Source: Candidatus Poribacteria bacterium
GTDB taxonomy: Bacteria; Poribacteria; WGA-4E; WGA-3G
Assembly: GCA_022824265.1 (NCBI GenBank)
Contig: JAJEAG010000027.1
Location: forward strand, 1-64,000
DNA: 64,000 bases
Direction of reading: 5' to 3'
The position numbers and the translations under genes were made by a program. Under the pieces are notes generated by a model. That model did not search any database. It was not told the origin of the DNA and saw only the letters and a program-made list of their open reading frames with translations. Shown here one piece after another: positions 33,855 through 37,829 of the stretch; the stretch's first letter is position 1; every line of letters begins with the position of its first letter.

Positions 33855-34481
33855 TCATCTTGTTTGTTTTAATGTTGACCAGATTATGGGTAGCAATTCA
33901 TCATTCTCAATTTGAATATTTTCCTCGCTGAATGCTTCATCATACCATTCGGTGATACGCCATTCTGCATCTCTTTTTTCTAAGATAAATAAGTTATTCC
34001 CTTCTGCAAACCAACCCGTGAATTCACCCTGAAATGATTCACCCGCTGGTACGTAACCTTGAATACGGTAATGATTTCGCACTTCTGCGCGAGTCAGATC
34101 CATATCAATGTACACTTCGGGAGGCGTAGAAAGGACTATATCAATATCTTGAAATTGCCTAAAAACATGTGTCGCTGCATCGCGTTCTTGTCTGATATCA
34201 TCAAACTCAAAATCATCAGTTTTATCACCCTCAGTTCCCATATCACCAACATATCGGAAACCCTGAGACCAGAACACACTCATAAAGGTATCAACATCTT
34301 CATTTTCATAACCTTCTTGCCACCGATTCAGAACGTCATTTATGGCAGACATGACCTCAGCAGGAGGAGATGATATACCACGCATATCCGAATCATCTAA
34401 CTTTTCAAGATCATCCCCACATGCAATAAAACACATAAATATAGCGAGAACTCCTGTAATAATGAAAATTCGTTTGAACAT
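33855..34481 (-). CDS. lipoprotein with NTF2/SnoaL-like domain and divergent tail
   Basis: A 208-aa lipoprotein: the signal ends in the lipobox FIACGDD. From about residue 42, the helix EVMSAINDVLNRWQEGYENE and DVDTFMSVFW, then strands ending in WRITEWYDEAF, fit the NTF2-like cone fold. The C-terminus is LLPIIWSTLKQTR, a weak match to the W-tail. It lies divergent from the ECF sigma gene at 34641 and 92 bp before the next gene of the leftward operon. No catalytic residues can be assigned. Confidence 0.75.
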   Translation of the reverse strand: MFKRIFIITGVLAIFMCFIACGDDLEKLDDSDMRGISSPPAEVMSAINDVLNRWQEGYENEDVDTFMSVFWSQGFRYVGDMGTEGDKTDDFEFDDIRQERDAATHVFRQFQDIDIVLSTPPEVYIDMDLTRAEVRNHYRIQGYVPAGESFQGEFTGWFAEGNNLFILEKRDAEWRITEWYDEAFSEENIQIENDELLPIIWSTLKQTR

Positions 34482-34500
34482 AAAATTATATCTCCATATT

Positions 34501-34540
34501 TATATGTAACCTTTTTTTCTGAAATACATTCTTACATAAG
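34501..34540 (+). promoter_or_regulatory. putative ECF-type promoter, copy 1
   Basis: TATATGTAACCTTTT, 11 bases, then CATTCTTACAT. The identical two blocks with the same spacing occur at 35271-35310. A TGTAAC -35-like block and the CATTCTTACA block about 17-18 bp away fit an ECF promoter. Lies about 100 bp before the sigma gene at 34641. Confidence 0.6.
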
Positions 34541-34640
34541 AATAGTATATCAACTTTACAACATCAAGTGTATTTTTATTATATGCTCTACAAAAACTGA
34601 GTCTCAATACAGGTCTGATAGGAATAGAGGATGTAGTGAT

Positions 34641-35258
34641 ATGGAAGAGTTGCACGACGAAGAATTGGAACATCAAAATATAGACGTAAGTGATGACGGA
34701 ACTTTTGAAATCCTCTATCACCGTTACGAAGGTCCTCTCCTCAGTTTTTTCTATCGACGGGTAGGGAATTGGGAAACCGCGCAAGACCTTGTACAAGAGA
34801 CATTTATCAAGGTTCATCAGAATCTCAGTACACTACGTAATCCGAAAAGTTTTTCCAGTTGGTTGTATAGCATTGCACATCAACTCATTGCAGCACACTT
34901 CCGTAAAGAGAATAGAAAGCTTGAAATTGGATCACTTGAAGGGAATCCTGAAGCATATTTGGTAGACCTTGAACATCGTTCTCCTATATTTCGTATCATT
35001 GCAAAAGAACAGATGGAGATCGTTTATGCTTTGGCACAACGTCTGCCCATCTCCGAACAGGAAGTATTCGAAATGAAACTTGTAAATCCCAAAATGATGT
35101 TGGAGGAAATATCCGATAAATTGCAAATTTCGGTATCAGCAACAAAAGTTCGCTATCATCGTGCTAAGAAAAAAGTCGTCGCGTGGATAAAGTCTGAATA
35201 TCCCGGTGAATTTGACAACATATTTGGCAAACAAGAAGATACAAAACAGATTAAATAA
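34641..35258 (+). CDS. RNA polymerase ECF-type sigma factor
   Basis: A 205-aa sigma factor. Region 2 has ILYHRYEGPLLSFFYRRVG, ETAQDLVQETFIKVHQNLSTL and SWLYSIAHQLIAAHFRKENR. Region 4 has LPISEQEVFEMKLVNPKMML and a helix-turn-helix QISVSATKVRYHRAKKKV. A 20-residue acidic lead precedes region 2. It is preceded by one copy of the duplicated promoter motif and followed by the second, which heads the next gene, so positive autoregulation of this locus is likely. There is no adjacent anti-sigma gene. Confidence 0.9.
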   Translation: MEELHDEELEHQNIDVSDDGTFEILYHRYEGPLLSFFYRRVGNWETAQDLVQETFIKVHQNLSTLRNPKSFSSWLYSIAHQLIAAHFRKENRKLEIGSLEGNPEAYLVDLEHRSPIFRIIAKEQMEIVYALAQRLPISEQEVFEMKLVNPKMMLEEISDKLQISVSATKVRYHRAKKKVVAWIKSEYPGEFDNIFGKQEDTKQIK

Positions 35259-35270
35259 ACAAAGCAATTT

Positions 35271-35310
35271 TATATGTAACCTTTTAAACCGATTTGCATT
35301 CTTACATTAC
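35271..35310 (+). promoter_or_regulatory. putative ECF-type promoter, copy 2
   Basis: Same two blocks as at 34501-34540 (15 and 11 identical bases, 11-base spacer with five identical positions or fewer). It lies directly before the repeat-protein gene at 35324, with the -10-like block ending about 15 bp before its ATG. Confidence 0.6.
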
Positions 35311-35323
35311 AAAGGAGGAACAC

Positions 35324-36034
35324 ATGACACCGAATGATGTCAAGGAATTGCTAAAATCCTTAATTTCAGAAGAAGGACTTCCAATAGACCTTATTGATAT
35401 AGCACCTTCACAAGACTTTCGTTCATTGGATTCCACAATGGAATCACGTATCAAAGATGTTATTCATCAGTGGAATACGGAAGGTAAAATCCACAATCGC
35501 CAACCTGGAAGAACTGAAATCATGGAATTCTATAGCAAAACCGATTCTGACTCTGCTGCGATTGAATTGTTGGAATCTTTAGACGTTGAAGTACTCCTTG
35601 AAACTATCATTACTGAAGAGAACTTACCGTTCTGTTTTACTAATCAAGGTTTTCGACTGATTACATTAGCAGAGGATGACACAACGAATTACCCAGTAAA
35701 AATTCTTCACGGCGGAATTAATTTAGAGAAAAAGTCTAAAGATAGGATTCAGTCATTACAACTTAAAGGAGTAGTAAAACGGTTTGAGAAGATGCTTGAT
35801 GAGAATCGCGTAAAGGCAAAATTGTTTCATAGAGGTTTTAGTTTAGAAAAGATTTCGGAAGAAGACATGCTTATCTCACAAGTTAAATCAATTGCAAAAA
35901 AGATAGATGACACTTTTGGTATAAACTATGTGCTAAATTCATACAATTACTTACATTCCGATGCAGAAGAAAGGGATTCTACCTTAAAAAGTGCAAGTAT
36001 CTGTATCTCTCTGTGGCGTTTTCCACGACGGTAA
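35324..36034 (+). CDS. repeat protein of unknown function, paralogue 1
   Basis: A 236-aa soluble, acidic protein of no family I know. It contains a repeated unit of the form LLxxLIxExxLPxxxxxxGFxL, for example LLKSLISEEGLPIDL and LLETIITEENLPFCF followed by NQGFRL, and more weakly LFHRGFSLEK. The ATG at 35324 has AAAGGAGG upstream; an ATG at 35294 is not preceded by one. Predicted target of the ECF sigma factor next door. A paralogue follows at 36091. The last 20 residues (KSASICISLWRFPRR) differ from the paralogue. Confidence 0.72.
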   Translation: MTPNDVKELLKSLISEEGLPIDLIDIAPSQDFRSLDSTMESRIKDVIHQWNTEGKIHNRQPGRTEIMEFYSKTDSDSAAIELLESLDVEVLLETIITEENLPFCFTNQGFRLITLAEDDTTNYPVKILHGGINLEKKSKDRIQSLQLKGVVKRFEKMLDENRVKAKLFHRGFSLEKISEEDMLISQVKSIAKKIDDTFGINYVLNSYNYLHSDAEERDSTLKSASICISLWRFPRR

Positions 36035-36090: not shown

Positions 36091-36834
36091 ATGACCCCGA
36101 ATGAAGTCAATGAAATGCTTGATAAATTAATCGATAAACTGAATCTTCCAATTTACGCCTCAAACAAGGGACCACAGTTGGTTAGTGATAACTCATTCAG
36201 TGAAACAAGAGAAGGTATGGATAAGGTAATTAAGCAATGGATAAACGGATGTGGTAGGAGCCATTCTATTTCTGTTGGAAGAACGGTTCCTGTTTTAGAG
36301 AAGGCGATTTCCAGTCTGGCGTTAGAGACACATCGCACACCAGAAATTGAGGAAATTCTGAAATCATTAATCACTGAACGCTCATTACCCGTAGAAGTTG
36401 TTAATCGTGGGTATGAATTGGCAGTAATTGCTAATGATGGAATCTTCTATCATGATGAAGATATGACTAAACTTCAAGCACTGTTAAAAAAAGAAGGTTT
36501 AGATGTTGCAGTGCGGCATAGTGGTTTTGATTTACGGGACAAAGAAAACAATCCTAAACTTCAGTTTTCTGAAGCCGAAACTCTAACAGAACACCTTGCA
36601 TCTTCATTAGAAGAACATGGTTTACAGGTGAAATTAATCCATCAGGGGTTCGATCTTAAGAAAAATCAAGACGACGAAATTGATATTGCAGAGATAAAGG
36701 AAATATCTTATCGATTGGAGATAATGGTCGGTATCAGTTATGTTCAAGGCGGTTATTCGTATTCAAATAACGTTGAAAACAAAAATATTCACTGGTATTC
36801 TGCTCAGGTAAATACAGCCTCGCCAATGATTTGA
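36091..36834 (+). CDS. repeat protein of unknown function, paralogue 2
   Basis: A 247-aa protein aligning along its length with that at 35324 (NEMLDKLIDKLNLPIY against KELLKSLISEEGLPID). At least four units can be read: NLPIY..NKGPQL, SLPVEVVNRGYEL, GLDVAVRHSGFDL and GLQVKLIHQGFDL. The strongest units are the last three, spaced by 40-60 residues. AGGAGGATG lies just before the ATG. It is 57 bp after paralogue 1 and 84 bp before the first ferredoxin. A redox or iron-related binding role is possible from context only. Confidence 0.72.
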   Translation: MTPNEVNEMLDKLIDKLNLPIYASNKGPQLVSDNSFSETREGMDKVIKQWINGCGRSHSISVGRTVPVLEKAISSLALETHRTPEIEEILKSLITERSLPVEVVNRGYELAVIANDGIFYHDEDMTKLQALLKKEGLDVAVRHSGFDLRDKENNPKLQFSEAETLTEHLASSLEEHGLQVKLIHQGFDLKKNQDDEIDIAEIKEISYRLEIMVGISYVQGGYSYSNNVENKNIHWYSAQVNTASPMI

Positions 36835-36918: not shown

Positions 36919-37185
36919 TTGAAAATGACCTATGTAATTTGCGAACCATGCATTGATGTAAAAGACAACGCTTGTACCATCGTTTGTCCCGTTGAATGTA
37001 TTTACCCAATGCAAGACGAAGACCCAGACGAATTTGAAGAAGTAAATCAACTCTATATTGACCCAGAAGAATGTATTGATTGTGCAATATGTGTAGATGA
37101 GTGTCCAGTTGAAGCAATCTTTGCTGATATAGATGTCCCAGAAGAATGGGAACACTATATTGAAATAAACGCTGATTATTTTTAA
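36919..37185 (+). CDS. ferredoxin (3Fe-4S/4Fe-4S type), copy 1
   Basis: An 88-aa ferredoxin, related to the Thermus/Azotobacter FdI family. Cysteines at 6, 9, 17, 21, 25, 50, 53, 56 and 60; by homology C6, C17 and C60 bind a 3Fe-4S cluster and C21, C50, C53 and C56 a 4Fe-4S cluster. An acidic insert (QDEDPDEFEEV) lies between the halves. The tail WEHYIEINADYF is near-identical in all three copies. First of three tandem paralogues; soluble electron carrier. Confidence 0.92.
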   Translation: MKMTYVICEPCIDVKDNACTIVCPVECIYPMQDEDPDEFEEVNQLYIDPEECIDCAICVDECPVEAIFADIDVPEEWEHYIEINADYF

Positions 37186-37240
37186 CAGTAAACATTTATT
37201 GACAATTTAGAAAAAATGAATATAATATAAGGTAAGGAAT

Positions 37241-37522
37241 ATGACTTATGTAATATGTGAACCTTGTGTTGATGTAAAGGATAGTGCCTGTGCTGATATT
37301 TGTCCTTGTGATGCCATACGACCAAATCCATCGGATGAATCAGATGAGTATGAAGGGGTTAATCAACTTTTCATTGATCCAGAAACCTGTATTGAATGCG
37401 GAGTGTGTGAACCAGAATGTCCTGTGGAGGCTATTTATTTTAAAGAAGATGTTCCCGATGAATGGGAGCAATACATACAGATAAACGCTGATTATTTCAT
37501 AGATCAAAATATCAGTGTTTAA
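37241..37522 (+). CDS. ferredoxin, copy 2, with a shifted cysteine
   Basis: A 93-aa paralogue. The cluster ligands C6, C17, C21, C50, C53, C56 and C60 are kept, but CPVEC in copies 1 and 3 has become CPCDA, so the cysteine at 25 is absent and one at 23 has appeared. The former is the free cysteine beside the cluster in relatives. It also has a seven-residue C-terminal extension (IDQNISV). GGTAAGGAAT precedes the ATG. It may tune redox potential differently. Confidence 0.88.
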   Translation: MTYVICEPCVDVKDSACADICPCDAIRPNPSDESDEYEGVNQLFIDPETCIECGVCEPECPVEAIYFKEDVPDEWEQYIQINADYFIDQNISV

Positions 37523-37565: not shown

Positions 37566-37829
37566 ATGACGTATGTTATATGCGAACCTTGCATAGACGA
37601 AAAAGACGCTTCTTGTGTTGATGTGTGTCCGGTGGATTGCATTCACCCACACCCAACTGATGCAGAGGAAGAATTTGAAGAAGTAGAAATGCTTTACATC
37701 GATCCCGAAGAATGCATCGATTGTGGTGTGTGTGAACCAGAATGTCCTGTGGAGGCTATCTTCATGGAAGAGGATGTTCCAGAAGAGTGGGAACATTTCA
37801 TAGAAATAAACGCTGATTATTTTGAGTAA
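37566..37829 (+). CDS. ferredoxin (3Fe-4S/4Fe-4S type), copy 3
   Basis: An 87-aa paralogue with the same cysteine layout as copy 1 (including C25). It starts TYVICEPCIDEKDASCVDVC. AGAAAGGAG lies upstream of the ATG. The acidic linker reads HPTDAEEEFEEVEM. Third gene of the tandem array; its 3' side is followed by a long inverted repeat (37866-37947). Confidence 0.92.
   Translation: MTYVICEPCIDEKDASCVDVCPVDCIHPHPTDAEEEFEEVEMLYIDPEECIDCGVCEPECPVEAIFMEEDVPEEWEHFIEINADYFE

Follow-up and report, generated by a model that had tools for sequence, protein, structure and literature searches.

The window, a stretch of 64,000 nucleotides from the draft genome of a Candidatus Poribacteria bacterium, which we take to be a sponge symbiont, carries a gene encoding an ECF sigma factor, followed by the genes of two repeat proteins, REP1 and REP2, and by three ferredoxin genes (Table 1). 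The sigma factor is composed of a sigma2 domain (residues 25–92) and a sigma4_2 domain (residues 126–178) only, separated by 33 residues, and it therefore has the two-domain architecture with a linker of less than 50 residues that defines ECF factors. Its conserved tail, EYPxEFDxxF, could be a contact site. None of the anti-sigma families in Pfam and NCBIfam was matched among the neighbours scanned. The draft genome, 4.45 Mb in 100 contigs and 96.66% complete, contains 36 ECF-like matches (E ≤ 1e-10), many of them in long open frames of 500–1000 aa or more; in one relative, an ECF-like match is fused to WD40-like repeats.

Table 1. Genes and sequence elements of the sigma locus, with positions in the window.
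Feature	Position	Strand	Evidence or remark
Divergent lipoprotein-like gene	33855–34481		weak match of SnoaL-like type, under the cut-off
P1, predicted ECF promoter before sigma	34501–34537	+	exact match; upstream site in 35/35 loci (≤3 mismatches)
P1 -35 box, TGTAACC	34505–34511	+	
P1 -10 box, CATTCT	34527–34532	+	
Sigma-70-like match downstream of P1	34555–34582		10/12
ECF sigma factor	34641–35258	+	Pfam Sigma70_r2 3.6e-18, Sigma70_r4_2 1.1e-06
P2, predicted ECF promoter before REP1	35271–35307	+	exact match; 34/35 loci
P2 -35 box, TGTAACC	35275–35281	+	
P2 -10 box, CATTCT	35297–35302	+	
Shine-Dalgarno sequence of REP1, AAAGGAGG	35311–35318	+	sequence; 6–9 nt past the motif
REP1, 236-aa soluble repeat protein	35324–36034	+	no Pfam family; co-inherited with sigma
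REP2, 247-aa REP1 paralogue	36091–36834	+	REP1 profile match 1.2e-27
Ferredoxin 1 (FdxA-like)	36925–37185	+	Fer4 5e-08
Sigma-70-type promoter of ferredoxin 2, TTGACA-N16-TATAAT	37199–37226	+	12/12 consensus bases
Ferredoxin 2	37241–37522	+	Fer4 9e-09
Ferredoxin 3	37566–37829	+	Fer4 3.1e-09

The duplicated block

An earlier note on this DNA had described a duplicated block, with 26 identical bases arranged around an N11 spacer, in front of the ECF gene and of the adjacent repeat-protein gene. A renewed search agreed on the positions, the bases and the spacing, and the placement of the ECF gene, the REP1 start codon and its Shine-Dalgarno sequence was confirmed. The two 37-bp copies, both exact matches to the pattern, are identical at 30 of 37 bases, comprising all 26 named bases and 4 of the 11 in the spacer. 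The 60-bp flanks on either side match at only 23/60 and 19/60, and none of 100 dinucleotide shuffles gave a block match. The genome scan proposed in the same note returned two matches only, preceding sigma and REP1: TGTAACCTTTT-N10..12-CATTCTTACAT occurs in the whole draft genome solely as the two window copies, and no third copy with N11 was found there at up to three mismatches.

P2 begins 13 bp past the sigma stop codon. In the window, 65 bp separate this stop codon from the REP1 ATG, and a scan of this interval found no terminator-like element, so that read-through from P1 is possible too. The sigma-70-like match downstream of P1 could provide basal sigma expression. Genes resembling the divergent lipoprotein-like gene are found close to sigma only in part of the own-genus loci.

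Conservation of the sites across the family

The sigma protein was found in 35 of 58 family genomes (E ≤ 1e-40), providing 35 loci for comparison (the window, L076–L099 and L129–L138). Within 3.2 kb upstream to 7 kb downstream of sigma, sense-strand counts gave 35 sites upstream of the gene and 35 downstream, the latter in 34 loci; antisense sites numbered zero. A P2-type site lies between sigma and REP1 in 34 of the 35 loci, and the remaining locus (G065) is cut by a contig end. The core can be written as ATGTAACCTTTT-N11-CATTCTTA or, in terms of boxes, as TGTAACC-N15-CATTCT, and no alternative box spacing was found in the 35 loci. Across the 70 sites, every base of the two boxes has a frequency of 1.00, except the T of TGTAACC (0.99), and the flanking bases drift, mostly at 0.3–0.6, apart from a T run immediately upstream. 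The AAC typical of ECF -35 boxes is thus constant (70/70), and the -10 box is CATTCT in all 70 sites, without the CGT regarded as an ECF hallmark.

The position of the sites is equally regular. At 34 of the 35 P2 sites, the Shine-Dalgarno sequence of REP1 begins 6–9 nt past the motif (the pattern search gave no start codon at two sites and no Shine-Dalgarno sequence at one). The motif therefore fills the -35/-10 position, and the remaining gap is too short to hold another promoter. P1 stands at the operon head even when one or two TPR-thioredoxin genes, with matches to Pfam Redoxin, AhpC-TSA and TPR, precede sigma.

On the larger scale, the core with at most one mismatch is present in 34/35 sigma-bearing genomes versus 3/23 others (Fisher p 2e-11), and the reversed pattern gave no match at this threshold in 58 genomes. 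At up to two mismatches chance matches appear: the reversed control then gives 10 matches in 59 genomes (manual count), and G040 and G052 have isolated core matches of this kind. The sole sigma-bearing genome without a core at one mismatch, G012, keeps both sites at three mismatches and is thus a diverged case rather than a broken one; a sigma pseudogene was considered there and rejected, as the TGA inside the match marks the regular end of a protein that is slightly shorter. Three genomes have a site and no full sigma match: in G061 the contig ends about 110 bp past P1, in G063 the site lies antisense within a gene, and in G071 the locus (L127) is decaying, with an intact P1, a split thioredoxin gene, a sigma fragment of about 130 aa, a REP1 remnant and a retained ferredoxin. 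The co-occurrence of sigma and motif is partly circular, because 69 of the 79 sites with at most one mismatch sit inside the sigma locus itself (10/79 are distal; manual count) and losing the locus removes most sites; related genomes, moreover, are not independent. Taken by themselves, the distal sites are not numerous enough to establish the link with sigma, and the positional evidence is stronger than the co-occurrence evidence.

Neighbouring genes and distal sites

REP1 is found, at more than 370 bits, in 34 of the 35 sigma-bearing genomes (manual count), the exception being G065, whose contig ends just past sigma. Among 84 genomes of the phylum, its profile matched nothing outside the family. 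Alignments were built with 25 rows each (A1, 25 REP1 copies from 24 genomes; A2, 25 genomes); none of the 25 REP1 members has a Pfam match, and an invariant cysteine is absent. The AlphaFold model of REP1 (pLDDT 76.8) had no match in the PDB by Foldseek at E ≤ 0.001, and VIA-align gave a best Z of 4.0, with no clear match. Since there is no confident structural match, we do not claim a fold. In L078, L082, L084 and L086, REP2-type genes are tandemly expanded to up to five or more copies, which sit between REP1 and the ferredoxins.

The earlier note had placed the repeat proteins, and perhaps the ferredoxins, in the regulon of the sigma factor. For REP1 this is supported by P2, and for REP2 the operon layout points the same way. 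For the ferredoxins the prediction holds in part only, because ferredoxin 2 has a conserved sigma-70-type promoter of its own. This element (TTGACA-N16/17-TATAAT) is present in 15 of 17 own-genus loci, the two loci without it showing no ferredoxin 2, and in none of 18 sister-genus loci. Ferredoxin 2 is thus probably transcribed from its own promoter, and full membership of the ferredoxins in the regulon is not supported for this gene. TGTAAC is absent from the 110 bp before each ferredoxin start examined. Ferredoxin 1, whose best NCBIfam match is FdxA_Actino (5.7e-22, below cut-off), may possibly be read through from P2.

P1 and P2 are the only sites in the genome of the window. The distal sites examined in relatives include some with two mismatches (G008:C43:27457 was left out). 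They precede a close group of genes for 811-aa TPR-thioredoxin proteins in four genomes, zinc-ribbon genes, whose weak DnaG-type matches fall short of the Pfam cut-off, in three, WD40 genes in two (G001 and G030), and an Mrp-like gene, named by eye, in G008 (two mismatches); the site in G059 has no sense-strand gene behind it. For the zinc-ribbon genes of loci L101 and L106 (G006 and G015), the promoter and gene start resemble P1 and the start of sigma: downstream of the site, 89 of 127 aligned columns are alike between the zinc-ribbon and sigma genes, compared with 75 of 138 in the P1–P2 control. This suggests that the zinc-ribbon genes captured their promoter by duplication. A general link between the motif and thioredoxin-like genes was rejected, as only 4 of 30 loci examined have a site.

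A predicted autoregulatory sigma circuit

Taken from sequence comparison, the explanation we consider clearly the most probable is that P1 and P2 are an autoregulated promoter pair of the encoded ECF sigma factor, with ATGTAACCTTTT-N11-CATTCTTA as its recognition sequence. The ECF promoter pair and autoregulation predicted by the earlier note are well supported by the conservation, strand, spacing and position of the sites. RNA polymerase carrying this sigma factor would start at both sites; from P1, sigma would yield more sigma, in a positive autoregulation, and P2 would act as an internal sigma-dependent promoter for REP1–REP2 and then, by read-through, for ferredoxin 1. Since dozens of related genomes retain the pair, it is very probable that the sigma factor activates its own gene and those next to it. 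That the sites are read by the encoded sigma, and not by another factor, is our inference, as are the transcription starts, the activating nature of the feedback and the trigger of sigma activity. The -10 element CATTCT, which does not contain the usual CGT, argues against this reading. Typical ECF boxes are described as AAC (-35) and CGT (-10) in PMC8103513, according to which the CGT was an early hallmark of the group and is no longer defining.

Control of the encoded sigma, through P1 and P2, by another of the ECF factors in this genome would be an improbable alternative: any of the 36 ECF-like matches is a possible reader in principle, but the motif always flanks the encoded sigma and is missing from nearly all sigma-less genomes despite their many other ECF-like matches, and autoregulation is common, occurring in around 55% of ECFs according to PMC8103513. 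Marginally less probable still is an operator for another transcription factor, suggested by the dyad ATGTAA...TTACAT formed by the block ends in the window. A dyad operator was rejected because just 10 of the 70 sites retain the arm TTACAT; moreover, the sites lie without exception on the sense strand, in the -35/-10 position just before the Shine-Dalgarno sequence. A chance repeat or a recent functionless duplication, compatible with there being only two copies in the genome, has next to no probability in view of the shuffles and the unduplicated flanks, and is refuted by a core conserved in 35 loci while the flanks drift.

For the autoregulated promoter pair, the best reading of the regulon is a small one, predicted to consist of sigma, REP1/REP2 and, by read-through, ferredoxin 1, together with TlpA-like TPR-thioredoxin proteins in relatives. 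Judging by the thioredoxin-like and ferredoxin genes, the circuit may have a role in redox or iron-sulfur homeostasis. REP1 could be an anti-sigma factor of an unrecognised type. More speculatively, and with rather low confidence, REP1 may represent a new class of sigma regulator, either a feedback anti-sigma or a sensor, made from P2 within a small redox circuit with the ferredoxins and the TPR-thioredoxin proteins.

As an ECF factor (group IV sigma-70) with predicted autoregulation, the poribacterial protein resembles known examples in having sigma2 and sigma4 only, a short linker and a promoter copy before its own gene, but it differs in its unusual -10 element, in having no recognised anti-sigma and in the additional promoter copy that lies between the sigma gene and the next one. 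Like the Streptomyces SigR/RsrA thiol-stress system, the sigma is linked to thioredoxin-type genes, and thioredoxin-like and iron-sulfur proteins are encoded in or near the locus; unlike in that system, no zinc anti-sigma was found at the poribacterial locus. The SigR promoter, GGAAT/GTT, also differs from the poribacterial motif. ECF group 16, represented by Bradyrhizobium EcfF/OsrA, has the promoter tGTAACc-N16-CGAA according to PMC3420878, and shares with the present locus the -35 element, the 16-nt spacing and an autoregulated sigma gene, the latter being predicted here. However, the poribacterial -10 reads ATTC instead of CGAA, which places the motif outside the ECF16 promoter definition as given there. 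In contrast to EcfF/OsrA, the scan of the neighbours revealed no OsrA-like anti-sigma, and REP1 shows no relationship to any Pfam family.

Our search of the open-licence literature found no papers on poribacterial ECF promoters. The present work thus describes a strongly conserved, predicted sigma–promoter pair for an uncultured phylum, which is directly testable, and as predicted it adds an unusual -10 element, CATTCT, to the known ECF promoters. Moreover, it singles out the uncharacterised REP1 family as the likely partner of a sigma factor for which no anti-sigma is apparent.
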